Part shown: positions 27,890 through 47,594 of the stretch, in pieces
Layout of the letters: every line of letters starts with the position of its first letter
How positions within the stretch are numbered: the stretch's first letter is position 1
NCBI GenBank assembly: GCA_016208975.1
Contig: JACQXA010000004.1
Location: 186,001-250,000, forward strand
From: Nitrospinota bacterium
GTDB taxonomy: Bacteria > Nitrospinota_A > UBA7883 > JACRLM01
Direction of reading: 5' to 3'
DNA: 64,000 nucleotides
The notes under the pieces: generated by a model
What the model saw: the letters and a program-made list of their open reading frames with translations, nothing else
The model's database searches: none
Told to the model about the DNA's origin: nothing
Program-made: the position numbers and the translations under genes

Positions 27890-28696
27890 GTGATGAATCA
27901 TCAGTTGTTGCTGATTCTGTTCTACATAACGCTTGCCATATTTTTCCTTGCCGCCATGCTCATGGCCGTTCACCAATGGCGCCAGGCGCGCAGGCGCGAG
28001 GAACTGTTGATGGGTGTGATCATCGCCCTCAACGAACTCATGGAGCTCAAAGACGGCTATACTGAGGGGCACTGCGCCCGCGTAAAGCGGTGGGCGCGGG
28101 ATGTTGGAGGCGCTCTGGGCTTAAAACGCGGGGAGATTGATGAAATCGCCATCGCCGCCATGATTCATGATATTGGTAAAATTGGGGCGCCGGACGAGAT
28201 CCTGCGCAAACCTTCCCCCCTCACTGAAGGAGAATACGCGGTAATTAAAACCCACCCCGCGCTTGGAGCCAAGGCGTTACACTCCCTGCAGTGGTTTGTG
28301 CCGATGGCCCGGATAATAAAACACCATCACGAGCGTTATGACGGCGCGGGATATCCCGATGGCCTGCAAGGAGAGGGAATTCCCGTTGGAGCGCGCATTG
28401 TGGCGTTATTGGACGCCTATGATGCTATGACTTCCAACCGCTCATACCGCCCAGCCATGGAGAGGAAAAAGGCTTTGGCCTTCATCCGTGAAGGGCGCGG
28501 AACGCAATTCGACCCGAAAATAACCGACATATTCCTTGCCATCCTGGAAAATGGGGGGAAATTGAGCCATGATCCTGTTTGCGGAATGGCGGTTAAAGAA
28601 GATATCTCCATTGTTTACAAGGGCCGTAGCTACTATTTTTGTTCCAGGACCTGCCGGGAGGAGTTTGAAAATAAACCTGAAAAATATGGACGGTGA
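27890..28696 (+). CDS. HD-GYP phosphodiesterase with C-terminal YHS domain
   Basis: A probable cyclic-di-GMP phosphodiesterase anchored by one N-terminal membrane helix (residues 5-27). The HD-GYP domain covers about 45-222 with His93-Asp94 in MIHDIGKIG, the HHE triad at 146-148 and DGAGYPDG at 151-158. Residues 228-266 form a YHS domain, DPVCGMAV with Cys231, then YYFCSRTCREEF with Cys251 and Cys255, which in other proteins binds metal. This combination is uncommon. The start is GTG at 27890 or ATG at 27893. The metal domain could gate the phosphodiesterase, but that is inference. Confidence 0.9.
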   Translation: MMNHQLLLILFYITLAIFFLAAMLMAVHQWRQARRREELLMGVIIALNELMELKDGYTEGHCARVKRWARDVGGALGLKRGEIDEIAIAAMIHDIGKIGAPDEILRKPSPLTEGEYAVIKTHPALGAKALHSLQWFVPMARIIKHHHERYDGAGYPDGLQGEGIPVGARIVALLDAYDAMTSNRSYRPAMERKKALAFIREGRGTQFDPKITDIFLAILENGGKLSHDPVCGMAVKEDISIVYKGRSYYFCSRTCREEFENKPEKYGR

Positions 28697-28752: not shown

Positions 28753-29562
28753 CTATTTTTTAAAATAGAGTTTGTATATCAGATGGCATCTGCTTTTGGC
28801 GCCAGCTTTGCGCATTATGGATGCAATGTGTGTCTTAGCCGTCTTCTCGCTAATAAAAAGCTTTTCGCCGATTTCACGGTTGGACAATCCCATCAATGTG
28901 AGGCGGGCGATCTGCCCCTCTCTGGCGGTGAGGGAGTATTTGCTGGTCATTGGAAACGCGCCATTGTCCTCCGCGCCCGGCGCCTTTGCCCGCAAAACAA
29001 CGCCGGCAAACGCGCTGGCGATGGCCGGTGCAACCAAAGTGAGCGCCGCTTTCTCCATCCGGGTATAGTCACTGGCGCCCGGCGGCCTGTGAAACGCCAC
29101 CGTGCCTGTGGTTTGGCCGTGAAACACCGCGTTCAAAACCATGGTTTGGCACAGACCCATCGGCTTGAAAAAATCCTGATAATACTCGCTGTCGAGGAAC
29201 GACGATTTTTTGACCACATCGTTTTCCGAAAATCCAATATTGTTAAAGCGCGGATCGCCCACAGTATTCAATACAGGGCTCACGCTGAAATAGCGTTCGT
29301 TATACCGCTTGATATTTTCAGCGCTGTCGCCGATATTTTTTGTGGCGAAAAAGTCCGGCAGGGGGGCAAGGGTTAAAGGGTCCTGGGCGTACAGCGCCGC
29401 CGTTTCGTGGGGAACAATGGAGCCCGCCTGTTTGAAAATCACCTCCGTCAGATCATCCATGGTCCTGGTTTCCGACAGATCATTGGCCAAACGCCAGGCC
29501 TTCCTTAACGTTGCGGCGGGCAGCTTGCGGATCGTTTGCCTGATATTCATTACACTATCCAT
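28753..29562 (-). CDS. LuxR-family transcriptional regulator
   Basis: A 269-residue regulator. The C-terminal 65 residues form a LuxR/GerE helix-turn-helix: LTAREGQIARLTLMGLSNREIGEKLFISEKTAKTHIASIMRKAG. The N-terminal 190 residues look like a GAF or autoinducer-type sensor without a receiver Asp motif, and no ligand can be read from them. An in-frame ATG at 29550 is an alternative start. It is divergent from the secreted beta-helix gene across a 230 base AT-rich region and may control it. Base composition is lower in GC than the housekeeping neighbours. Confidence 0.85.
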   Translation of the reverse strand: MDSVMNIRQTIRKLPAATLRKAWRLANDLSETRTMDDLTEVIFKQAGSIVPHETAALYAQDPLTLAPLPDFFATKNIGDSAENIKRYNERYFSVSPVLNTVGDPRFNNIGFSENDVVKKSSFLDSEYYQDFFKPMGLCQTMVLNAVFHGQTTGTVAFHRPPGASDYTRMEKAALTLVAPAIASAFAGVVLRAKAPGAEDNGAFPMTSKYSLTAREGQIARLTLMGLSNREIGEKLFISEKTAKTHIASIMRKAGAKSRCHLIYKLYFKK

Positions 29563-31787: not shown

Positions 31788-31998
31788 GAGGAAGAGACGC
31801 GCCGGAGAGATTCCCGCGCGGTATGCGGAGGGTAATCATGACACACCACTTCAGGTTCTGCTTGATCCACTTGAAGAACAGCTCGACTGCCCTGTCAAAA
31901 TGAAATCTCGGAGCGAGTTTTATCAGTTCCGAGAACACGGTTCCTATTTTGGTCTGGCCTGATCCTACTTTTCTGGCAATGGGTCTACTCAAACTCAT
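31771..31998 (-). pseudogene. Decayed IS4-family transposase remnant
   Basis: The open frame joins two separated pieces of an IS4-type transposase. Residues 15-35 (KIGTVFSELIKLAPRFHFD) are like the N-terminus. Residues 36-50 (RAVELFFKWIKQNLK) are like the C-terminal catalytic helix region, which normally lies about 300 residues later. The junction near 31893 therefore marks a large internal deletion. After residue 50 the frame runs into unrelated sequence, so the right end is lost too. The left end may survive as CACTACTGTCCGG read from 32055 on the minus strand. It cannot be functional. It lies between the beta-helix gene and hgcA. Confidence 0.78.
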
Positions 31999-32066
31999 TA
32001 TCCGGTAGAAAAAGCGCTTCAGGCCAGACCAGCTAAACTTTTACCGGACAGTAGTGATCTAAATTA

Positions 32067-32217
32067 GGTAGTGTCTCAGTTTGAAAGTACTGGGGAGACT
32101 CTTCACTTACACTCAGAATGACAATATAAAAGCCTTTGAAAACATTGTCATCCTGAGCGAAGCGCAAGCGGAGTGAAGGATCTGTCTGTTATTTGAGATT
32201 CAAACTGGAACACCACC
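32067..32217. mobile_element. 151 bp MITE-like element, copy 2
   Basis: Second copy of the element at 124-274, in the same orientation and of identical length, with scattered substitutions. The terminal repeats are GGTAGTGTCTCAGTTTGAA on the left and TTCAAACTGGAACACCACC on the right, the latter with two extra changes. It is flanked directly by the 8 bp duplication CTAAATTA at 32059-32066 and 32218-32225. It inserted next to the relic left end of the IS4-type element and only about 55-70 bases upstream of hgcA. The right end could contribute a -35 box for hgcA. Confidence 0.88.
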
Positions 32218-32233
32218 CTAAATTAAATATGAT
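32205..32233 (+). promoter_or_regulatory. Possible hybrid promoter for hgcAB
   Basis: TATGAT (32228-32233, five of six consensus -10 bases) lies 17 bases after CTGGAA (32205-32210, three of six -35 bases). The -35 part is inside the right terminal repeat of the miniature element, and the -10 part is in host DNA at the target duplication. If real, the insertion created or altered hgcAB expression. Weak -35, so tentative. Confidence 0.3.
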
Positions 32234-32271
32234 GTTTTCTCGTGATGCCTTAAAATGATGATGGGAATAAT

Positions 32272-33339
32272 TTGGCGCAAAGTGACATGACTAGCGATAA
32301 ACTGGCCGCGAACACACAGACGACCCCGGGCATGACCATGTCGTTGTTCGCCGTGGCGGAACATGGCGTTAAAATTTCCCCGCCCATGAAAACCACCAGC
32401 CTGATAGGTTTTGGAAACCGGCTGGATCATTTCCAGGCCCGCATAGGCTGGCGGCGGGAAGGCCACAGGGTTGCGCCGGGGCTGTATGAACTGGGGGCGC
32501 CTGGGAAAGAGTCGCCGGTGTTTGTCACCGCCAACTACACTTTGAGCTTCGACGCTTTGCGCTCCTCCCTTTCCGGGATGGACGCTTACATACTTGTACT
32601 GGACACCAAAGGGATAAACGTTTGGTGCGCGGCGGGCAAGGGAACTTTCGGCACGGAAGAGCTTGTCCATCGGGTGAAAGCCGCGGGTCTTAAAGCGTTG
32701 GTAAACCATCGCAAACTGATACTCCCCCAGCTTGGCGCCGTGGGGGTGGCGGCCCATGTGGCGAAAAAGAACTGCGGATTCAAGGTGGAATACGGCCCTG
32801 TCCGCGCAAAGGACATAAAGGATTATCTGGAAAACGGGGCGGCGCCGGAGATGCGCCGGGTCAATTTCGGATTGATTGACAGGCTCACGCTTATCCCCGT
32901 GGAGTTCAAGCATTTCTTCATCCCCATGGTTATCGCCTCGGCGGTAATGTTCGCCCTGGCGGGAACCACCGGCGTTTTGGCGGCGCTTACGGCGTTCACC
33001 GGCGGACTGGCGCTGTTCCCGGCGCTACTGCCTCACCTGCCATTCAAAAACTTTTCTTTGAAAGGTTTTGTATTGGGCGTCGCGCTGGCTTTGCCATTTA
33101 CTGTAATGGCTTTGATGAACGAAACAGACGCGCTGACCGGCGCCGGATGGGCATTGGGTTATCTTCTGGCCATGCCACCGGTGACGGCGTATCTGGCTCT
33201 GAATTTCACAGGCTCCACCACCTTCACGTCTGTGACCGGCGTTAAAAAGGAGATTTCCATCTACACGCCCATTCTGGCCAAGCTGGCCGGGGCTGGCACG
33301 GTTATGATGGCGATATTGGCCGTGTCGAGGTATTTATGA
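32272..33339 (+). CDS. hgcA: HgcA, corrinoid protein of mercury methylation
   Basis: Membrane-anchored cobamide protein that donates a methyl group to inorganic mercury. The soluble corrinoid-binding domain (about 45-215) contains the diagnostic cap-helix motif NVWCAAGK at 116-123 with Cys119 as the predicted lower-axial cobalt ligand, preceded by YILVLDTKGI. Residues from about 230 onward form several membrane helices (HFFIPMVIASAVMFAL and others), as in known HgcA and unlike the related CFeSP of the acetyl-CoA pathway. Starts at TTG 32272 (GGGA nearby) or ATG 32287 are both possible, giving 355 or 350 residues. The stop overlaps hgcB by four bases. No regulator gene is adjacent. Confidence 0.95.
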   Translation: MAQSDMTSDKLAANTQTTPGMTMSLFAVAEHGVKISPPMKTTSLIGFGNRLDHFQARIGWRREGHRVAPGLYELGAPGKESPVFVTANYTLSFDALRSSLSGMDAYILVLDTKGINVWCAAGKGTFGTEELVHRVKAAGLKALVNHRKLILPQLGAVGVAAHVAKKNCGFKVEYGPVRAKDIKDYLENGAAPEMRRVNFGLIDRLTLIPVEFKHFFIPMVIASAVMFALAGTTGVLAALTAFTGGLALFPALLPHLPFKNFSLKGFVLGVALALPFTVMALMNETDALTGAGWALGYLLAMPPVTAYLALNFTGSTTFTSVTGVKKEISIYTPILAKLAGAGTVMMAILAVSRYL

Positions 33340-33644
33340 CCACGCTTTTTAACAGTTACTATATCGAGAACACGCTGGAGTTCAACGCGGACAAATGCGT
33401 CAATTGCGGCGTATGCGTAATAGTATGCCCCCATGCCGTTTTCGCGGAAAACGGGGGTGTTGTAAGCGTGTCTAAAAAATCCGCGTGCATGGAGTGCGGC
33501 GCCTGTATGAAAAACTGCCCCGTGGACGCAATAAAAGTGGACGCGGGGGTTGGATGCGCCAGCGCCATGATATACGCGGCCATTTACGGAGGCGAACCCA
33601 CCTGCGGTTGCGACAGCGAAGGGAACCAGGCGGGGTGTTGCTGA
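33336..33644 (+). CDS. hgcB: HgcB, ferredoxin of mercury methylation
   Basis: Electron donor for HgcA, required with it for methylation of mercury. Two 4Fe-4S motifs are seen: Cys21, 24, 27, 31 (CVNCGVCVIVCP) and Cys51, 54, 57, 61 (CMECGACMKNCP). Cys74 in GVGCASAM is the extra family-specific cysteine, and the chain ends in a vicinal pair, Cys101-Cys102. Two further cysteines, 90 and 92, form CGC in the tail. The 102 residues are near the usual length. Translation is coupled to hgcA through an ATGA overlap. The stop lies two bases from the convergent rsmA stop. Confidence 0.95.
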   Translation: MTTLFNSYYIENTLEFNADKCVNCGVCVIVCPHAVFAENGGVVSVSKKSACMECGACMKNCPVDAIKVDAGVGCASAMIYAAIYGGEPTCGCDSEGNQAGCC

Positions 33645-33646
33645 TC

Positions 33647-34441
33647 CTACCCTAAGCAGGCGTACAACGCGGCGTACCGCTCAATCGAAACATCCTCGGG
33701 CCTTATGGAAGGCGCAACGCCAGCCTTTTCACAGGCAGTTTCAAACTCCTCCGCATCGGGCCACAGGTTCTTCAGATTATTCCTCAACGTCTTCCGGCGA
33801 TGGACGAACGCCTTGCCCACAAACTCGAAAAACGCATCCTCATCTTTCACGTCCACCGGTGGCGATTGGCGCGGAACCAGCCGTATCACCGCCGAGTCCA
33901 CTTTGGGGCGGGGCCTGAAAGAGTCCGGAGGAACCTGAAACATAAACCGGCGTTCGCAATGATATTCCAGGTATATGGAAAGGGAGCCGTAATGAGGGTC
34001 GCCCGGCCCGGCGGTTAGCCTTTCGGCCACCTCTTTTTGGGTCATCAGCGTCATGGAGGTGATGCGCTTTTTATTTTCGATGAACTTTTTTATAAGTGGC
34101 ACGGAGACGGAATAAGGAAGGTTTGACACAACGCGATATGGAGATTCCACGGAGCCGTAATCGAAATAAATGGCGTTACCCCTGATAATGACAAGATTGG
34201 GGCGGGCGCCCATTTCCTGTTTCAGCCCGTCGTAAAGCTCCACGTCCAGCTCCACGGCGGTAACATGCGCCCCGGTGTTCAATAATCCCTCGGTCAATAT
34301 CCCCCGGCCAGGCCCCACCTCCAACACTCTGCTGTGCGGGACTACTCCCGATTCGGACACTATCCGGGCCACAACGGAACCGTCCACCAGGAAACATTGC
34401 CCCAGTTTTTTTTGTTTGTGCGCGTACCGCCGCATGGGCAT
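33647..34441 (-). CDS. rsmA: 16S rRNA dimethyladenosine transferase
   Basis: Methylates two adjacent adenosines in helix 45 of 16S rRNA (KsgA/RsmA). The N-terminus KKLGQCFLVD resembles the family KKxLGQNFL with Cys in place of Asn. SAM-binding EVGPGRGILTE is at 41-51, the acidic loop follows in AVELD, and the catalytic motif is NLPYSVS. The C-terminal FVHRRKTLRNNL is typical. With 264 residues it is complete. It shares one base with pdxA and is convergent with hgcB. Confidence 0.95.
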   Translation of the reverse strand: MPMRRYAHKQKKLGQCFLVDGSVVARIVSESGVVPHSRVLEVGPGRGILTEGLLNTGAHVTAVELDVELYDGLKQEMGARPNLVIIRGNAIYFDYGSVESPYRVVSNLPYSVSVPLIKKFIENKKRITSMTLMTQKEVAERLTAGPGDPHYGSLSIYLEYHCERRFMFQVPPDSFRPRPKVDSAVIRLVPRQSPPVDVKDEDAFFEFVGKAFVHRRKTLRNNLKNLWPDAEEFETACEKAGVAPSIRPEDVSIERYAALYACLG

Positions 34442-46889: not shown

Positions 46890-47594
46890 TTACTGCGCCA
46901 AGATCGGCAGAAGGGCGGCCGCCACGCGCAAATCATCGGGGGTGGTGATTTTTATATTTGTCTCCGCCCCTTCAACGATGCAGGTTTTTATCCCAGCCCG
47001 TTCGGTGAGTGAAGACTCGTCGGAACCGGTGAACCCGTCCCTCGCCGCCGCTTCAAACGCCTGTTTCAACACATTGTAATCAAAGGCTTGGGGGGTTTGT
47101 ATCCTCACCACATCTTCCCGGTCCACGCTTCCGGTTATGATCCCGTTCCGCGCCTGTTTCAACGTGTCCTTTACCTTTATGGCCACGGTGGCGGCGCCAT
47201 GTTCATGGGCGGCGGCCAGGGTTTGGGCCACCATTTCGATGGTGATAAAGGGCCGTACCCCGTCGTGGATTAGCACCAGCCCGGTGTCCACCGAAAGCGC
47301 GTTGAAACCGAGGCGGACAGAATCCTGCCGGGCCGCGCCGCCCGCCACGATATTTGAAACTTTCTGGAACCCGAGGTTTTCAACAATCTCCCTGCGGCAA
47401 AACTCCAGGTTTTCAACGGGAGCCACCAATATGATCTCGTCCACCAGCGGAGAGGATTCAAGCACAGCAAGAGGGTAATAAACAATGGGTTTGCCGTTGA
47501 GCGACAGGAACTGCTTGAGTCCTCCCATCCCCATGCGGGTTCCAGCGCCGCCCGCAGGCACAATGGCCGCCACTTTTCGGTTCTCGAAAGGCAT
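46890..47594 (-). CDS. ispD: 2-C-methyl-D-erythritol 4-phosphate cytidylyltransferase
   Basis: Third enzyme of the MEP pathway, forming CDP-methylerythritol from the product of Dxr. The nucleotide-binding start AAIVPAGGAGTRMGMGGLKQFL, the motif VLIHDGVRPF, KVKDTLKQ and the C-terminal RIQTPQAFDYNVL are diagnostic. The 234 residues match the family. It starts one base after the stop of the large helicase gene and ends that operon. ispF is not visible here. Confidence 0.95.
   Translation of the reverse strand: MPFENRKVAAIVPAGGAGTRMGMGGLKQFLSLNGKPIVYYPLAVLESSPLVDEIILVAPVENLEFCRREIVENLGFQKVSNIVAGGAARQDSVRLGFNALSVDTGLVLIHDGVRPFITIEMVAQTLAAAHEHGAATVAIKVKDTLKQARNGIITGSVDREDVVRIQTPQAFDYNVLKQAFEAAARDGFTGSDESSLTERAGIKTCIVEGAETNIKITTPDDLRVAAALLPILAQ

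Follow-up and report, generated by a model that had tools for sequence, protein, structure and literature searches.

The window, i.e. the whole stretch of 64,000 nucleotides analysed here, covers bases 186001-250000 of contig C4 (2.2 Mb) in G000, the genome that contains it, which consists of four contigs (2.97 Mb) and is rated 100% complete and 0% contaminated. It carries hgcA and hgcB, adjacent and on the same strand, together with the following features:

hgcA, 32272..33339, + strand: TTG start, 355 aa; corrinoid protein with an N-terminal cobamide-binding domain and a C-terminal membrane domain
hgcB, 33336..33644, + strand: 102 aa; dicluster 4Fe-4S ferredoxin with Cys74 and C-terminal cysteines 90, 92, 101, 102
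intergenic stretch upstream of hgcA, 31788..32271, + strand: 484 bp; holds a 40-bp repeat at 32147-32186
rsmA (ksgA), 33647..34441, - strand: TIGR00755, 261 bits; convergent, two bases past hgcB
ispD, 46890..47594, - strand: TIGR00453, 220.7 bits; about 13 kb from hgcAB

When the two proteins were compared with curated equivalog models, each with its own cut-off, HgcA scored 410.7 bits (NF040863, cut-off 275, E = 4e-123) and HgcB 109.7 bits (NF040864, cut-off 99), which, for sequence matches, is far past chance. HgcA contains the cap motif NVWCAAGK, the cysteine of which is residue 119 counted from the TTG and occupies an invariant column in an alignment of 34 sequences. In HgcB, cysteines 21, 24, 27, 31 and 51, 54, 57, 61 form two CxxCxxCxxxCP motifs, CMECGA is also present, and further cysteines are found at 74, 90, 92, 101 and 102. 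The genes overlap by four bases (ATGA). Thus, with both genes above the curated cut-offs and all diagnostic residues there, positions 32272-33644 are, on sequence grounds, a complete, intact and ordinary hgcA-hgcB pair, in agreement with an earlier sequence-only reading of this DNA; the cap motif with Cys119, the two 4Fe-4S motifs, Cys74, the terminal cysteine pair and the four-base overlap that it described were all recovered, along with two more tail cysteines (90 and 92). The TTG has no clear ribosome-binding site in front of it, alternative ATGs lie at 32287, 32332 and 32386, and the first 31 residues are disordered in the structure model (pLDDT <50 for residues 1-31); the cysteine number 119 may shift with the true hgcA start, the motif being unaffected.

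The AlphaFold2 model of HgcA, built from a 34-row alignment and cofactor-free, has a mean pLDDT of 85.2 and a pTM of 0.75. The C-terminal membrane domain claimed from the sequence appears in it as long helices (208-255, 261-283, 287-315 and 321-354), and the protein matches over its whole length the published HgcA model 9a0b, the best PDB match in Foldseek (E = 6.6e-21, 332 columns, 39% identity). CFeSP structures come next in the ranking, at much weaker E-values, and can share only the cobamide domain with HgcA. Superposition on 9a0b gave a TMq of 0.50 and an rmsd of 7.6, suggestive of a differing domain orientation, not a differing fold. In the cofactor-free model, the cap segment (residues 111-127) is coil, with block pLDDT values of 66-73. 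The membrane domain of HgcA from ND132 (Pseudodesulfovibrio mercurii; 9a0b model, PMC7305189) has five TM helices, and the ND132 HgcAB is like the window's pair in domain order, cap motif cysteine, the two CxxCxxCxxxCP motifs, the terminal CC and the adjacency of the genes, the extra HgcB cysteine being residue 73 in ND132 and 74 here. In contrast, identity between the two is 39% over the 332 columns of the fold alignment, the window's pair lacks an ArsR-like gene upstream, and its host, unlike ND132, has heme-copper oxidases.

The Pfam label for HgcA is CdhD, because the domain family, with its cobamide domain, is common to HgcA and CFeSP. Together with the homology of the cobamide domain to that of CFeSP, this label is what could be held to indicate that the first gene encodes a CFeSP (CdhD/AcsC-type) or an HgcAB-like fusion relative rather than HgcA, an assignment that is hardly credible given the 410.7 bits to NF040863. 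The CFeSP gamma subunit model (NF003195) reaches 78.2 bits against a cut-off of 306, matching the C-terminal 125 positions only, and the HgcAB-like fusion model (NF043039) 208 bits against a cut-off of 285, the genes being separate here. A CFeSP identity was thus ruled out by the curated model scores. The C-terminal membrane domain and the separate hgcB likewise argue for HgcA, as does a tree rooted on the HgcAB-like fusion proteins, where these fall outside and the window's protein lies inside HgcA. The CFeSP large subunit (2h9a, 4djd) has the same cobamide-binding domain fold as HgcA but lacks the membrane domain and the cap cysteine and belongs to another pathway. A separate HgcAB-like fusion protein (L098, on contig C38 of the phylum genome G005; 374.7 bits, cut-off 285) occurs beside true hgcAB in its genome.

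The pair is flanked upstream by a gene for a beta-helix surface-type protein and downstream by convergent rsmA-pdxA. The earlier reading noted the absence of an adjacent regulator, and indeed none lies in the 484-bp stretch before hgcA or beside the pair, the nearest being a LuxR-type gene (28753-29562) and a two-component pair (35.3-38.9 kb). No clear sigma-70 promoter was found on the hgcA strand in 31788..32271 by scans that are weak for such elements, the promoter and terminator scan gave nothing beyond chance level, no RNA elements or tRNAs were found in the 64-kb window, and no mercury or arsenic genes were recognised next to the pair. A common rsmA-hgcAB neighbourhood was considered and rejected: relatives with an assembled rsmA carry rsmA and hgcA on separate contigs. 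The 40-bp repeat (GTCATCCTGAGCGAAGCGCAAGCGGAGTGAAGGATCTGTC) is perfect and occurs at 204-243 and 32147-32186, the second copy stopping some 85 bases short of the start of hgcA. Three genes before hgcA, at 27890-28696, is a gene for an HD-domain protein (HD_5) whose C-terminus carries a YHS metal-binding domain.

Taken as a whole, the sequence evidence is best explained by a pair that very probably encodes a working HgcAB mercury methyltransferase. This function is supported here by gene identity, diagnostic residues, the two-domain fold and intact frames and, on the side of the host, by cobamide-synthesis genes, a MetH-like protein and the fact that CFeSP was undetected; from these we infer activity and expression of the pair. 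SAM was published in 2024 as the methyl donor for HgcAB (PMC11588087), and HgcAB cysteine mutants have been reported (PMC11588087, PMC7305189). Because of the published work on Pseudodesulfovibrio mercurii ND132, a mechanism can be proposed whereby the two clusters of HgcB would pass low-potential electrons that reduce the HgcA-bound cobamide to Co(I), and SAM would methylate Co(I) to methyl-Co(III), the lower ligand being Cys119. Hg(II) would be delivered by the tail cysteines of HgcB, the methyl group would then move to mercury, and Cys74 together with the tail cysteines may assist the release of CH3Hg+. Methylation would be expected to occur when the facultative host meets low oxygen.

An intact HgcAB could also have a main natural reaction other than Hg methylation (e.g. 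with another metal or metalloid), Hg being a side substrate, an interpretation that overlaps with the one above instead of excluding it and that we consider possible though unlikely. What HgcAB does in the cell is a matter of debate, and other genomes have arsenic-linked regulators near it (PMC7438021, PMC10349881); the lack of recognised mercury or arsenic genes beside the window's pair and of MerB in G000 is compatible with such a role. However, it is established that all characterised members with these residues methylate Hg (PMC7305189), and the window's sequence departs nowhere from the diagnostic residue set.

A working mercury methyltransferase would have to operate in a host that respires oxygen. 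The heme-copper oxidase family was matched in all 24 genomes of the phylum examined, and G000 encodes several such oxidases, one of them a cbb3 enzyme with ccoN, ccoO and ccoP above cut-off. HgcAB is O2-sensitive, and the presence of several O2 reductases in the host counts against a working HgcAB. The genome also encodes dsrA, dsrB, dsrC and dsrO, which pass curated cut-offs, with DsrP-like, TusD/DsrE-type and TusC/DsrF-type genes nearby. The cobamide genes of G000 comprise CobS, CobD, CbiB, BluB and CobB as well as a CbiM-type cobalt transporter component; judging from these synthesis and transport genes, the host is predicted to supply HgcAB with its cobamide. The BluB reaction needs O2. 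A MetH-like homologue of 807-826 aa scores under the full-length MetH cut-off. A search of G000 gave no second, CFeSP-like match, although the same model detects CFeSP in numerous genomes of another phylum; this result is compatible with SAM as the donor (PMC11588087) and with methylation that does not depend on the Wood-Ljungdahl pathway. The sole MerB match among the 24 phylum genomes is in G010 (L148, L252), the carrier of a truncated hgcA. The DsrA of G000 (L213:9836-12499; contig C4, 411.8-414.5 kb) scores 572 bits and those of G019 and G014 score 569 and 547, above most relatives (about 500); the phylum may contain two types of dsrAB.

Strict anaerobes are regarded as the main producers of methylmercury, and hgcAB together with O2 respiration and sulfur metabolism in one genome, from a small and little-known phylum, is less usual. 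Earlier work has described hgcA from numerous phyla, its extensive transfer and its ArsR-like neighbours (PMC7438021), as well as hgcA carriers with terminal oxidases (PMC8163782). The proposal that the carrier extends knowledge of who makes methylmercury is borne out in that the carrier is genuine, but its type is already partly known: Nitrospinota UBA7883 with hgcA were described from rice paddies in 2023 (PMC10349881) and, like G000, combine dissimilatory sulfur genes, a cbb3 oxidase and a facultative profile. Traits of UBA7883 genomes have been described as well (PMC10839748), and the GC of G000 (56%) fits the values of 54-63 in the genome names there, which apparently denote GC; on this profile, G000 is somewhat more likely than not to be UBA7883-like. 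What is new is the context, namely O2 respiration with sulfur genes, a double gain and the lexA linkage described below, i.e. a modestly new evolutionary and regulatory setting. A near-complete genome with hgcAB, cbb3, dsr and an O2-requiring cobamide step makes a good reference point for methylation where oxic and anoxic zones meet.

With a GC of 0.569 and a GC3 of 0.69 for hgcA, both genes of the pair resemble the genes around them in these measures, which argues against an assembly contaminant or a recent functionless foreign insertion. This origin appears very improbable also because the pair lies on a single 2.2-Mb contig of a genome with the completeness and contamination ratings given above, because the same HgcA type occurs in three other genomes of the order, and because the best identity to the window's HgcA is about 60% among the matches listed, so that the gene is not recent from any sampled source. 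Pointing the other way, HgcA groups with archaeal and distant bacterial sequences, the nearest relative examined (G001, same family, 86% complete) shows no hgcA, and the 40-bp repeat lies upstream of hgcA.

Among the 24 genomes of the phylum examined, seven have hgcA over the cut-off (G000, G002, G005, G009, G016, G020 and G022), and G010 has a truncated hgcA covering the first 86 model positions only. A match in G003 (21 bits, two stops) was dismissed as chance, running on the minus strand across a purine-phosphorylase-like gene beside hemL. In a maximum-likelihood tree of 57 sequences, the window's HgcA and those of G002, G005 and G009, from the same order, belong to a clade of 36 with 100/100 support, together with methanogens, ANME and Methanoperedens archaea, WOR-3, Marinimicrobia, Chloroflexota, Gemmatimonadota and Eisenbacteria, a clade whose sampling is biased, its loci having been picked for likeness to the query. 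The HgcA of G016, G020 and G022 (another family of the same class) fall apart from these, in a second 100/100 clade that they share with two genomes of G062's phylum (Thermodesulfobacteriota by record) and G034. A single clade of all seven HgcA of the phylum was rejected (AU p = 3.2e-6), and thus the phylum gained hgcAB at least twice; a single clade of the four HgcA of the order was unrecovered yet not rejected (p = 0.18). Within the clade of 36, archaeal-type HgcA (Methanoregula, Methanolobus and Methanoperedens, with WOR-3, Marinimicrobia and Chloroflexota) share about 51-60% identity with the window's protein. Unlike them, the window's pair has a bacterial host and lacks a directly upstream gene fit to be the PrlF/AbrB-like antitoxin reported for archaeal hgcA loci (PMC10349881). 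Probably, hgcAB entered the ancestor of the window's order from the archaeal-type HgcA pool, apart from the sister-order copy. In one small phylum, hgcAB was gained at least two times from clearly different sources and mostly lost at least one time; given such repeated gain and loss, taxonomy cannot predict the presence of hgcAB. The earlier statement that few lineages have the pair understated its spread, with at least 557 relatives in one scan of species genomes. The HgcA of several relatives (L087, L088 and L090) have N-terminal extensions rich in cysteine pairs (SCCSPAE, SCCG), possibly a metal-binding tail, which are absent from the window's protein.

In the sister families represented by G002 and G005, hgcA and hgcB come right after lexA, and a convergent ispD is the next gene, with lexA and ispD confirmed by curated models and gaps of 23 and 144 bases between lexA and hgcAB (L142:571-2634, L143:2482-4584). 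In G010 (L148:4019-5538), lexA is followed by a short gene that reads as DUF202-like, the truncated hgcA and, further on, ispD. Among about 130 loci, lexA was found upstream of hgcA only in G002 and G005, plus the G010 relic, a lower bound since many flanks are short. The motif TTTCG-N7-TTCGCYTA lies just upstream of lexA in eleven examined lexA loci of the order; no exact copy of it occurs in 197 kb of G000 sequence surrounding other genes. The lexA of G000 is on contig C1 and its ispD in the window, both away from hgcAB; a LexA-type motif before the window's hgcA was also considered and is absent from the upstream stretch. The shared gene order and promoter motif could reflect a LexA-controlled SOS-type unit (lexA-hgcA-hgcB) to which the hgcAB of the order once belonged and which the window's copy has since left, a speculative scenario that we rate as improbable. 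If true, Hg methylation in O2-respiring bacteria could be tied to DNA damage or oxidative stress. No publication describing hgcA together with lexA was found in the literature searched, and the linkage offers a testable candidate regulator of hgcAB. In G022, an ArsR-like gene, assigned from its sequence without an NCBIfam match, lies 26 bases upstream of hgcA.
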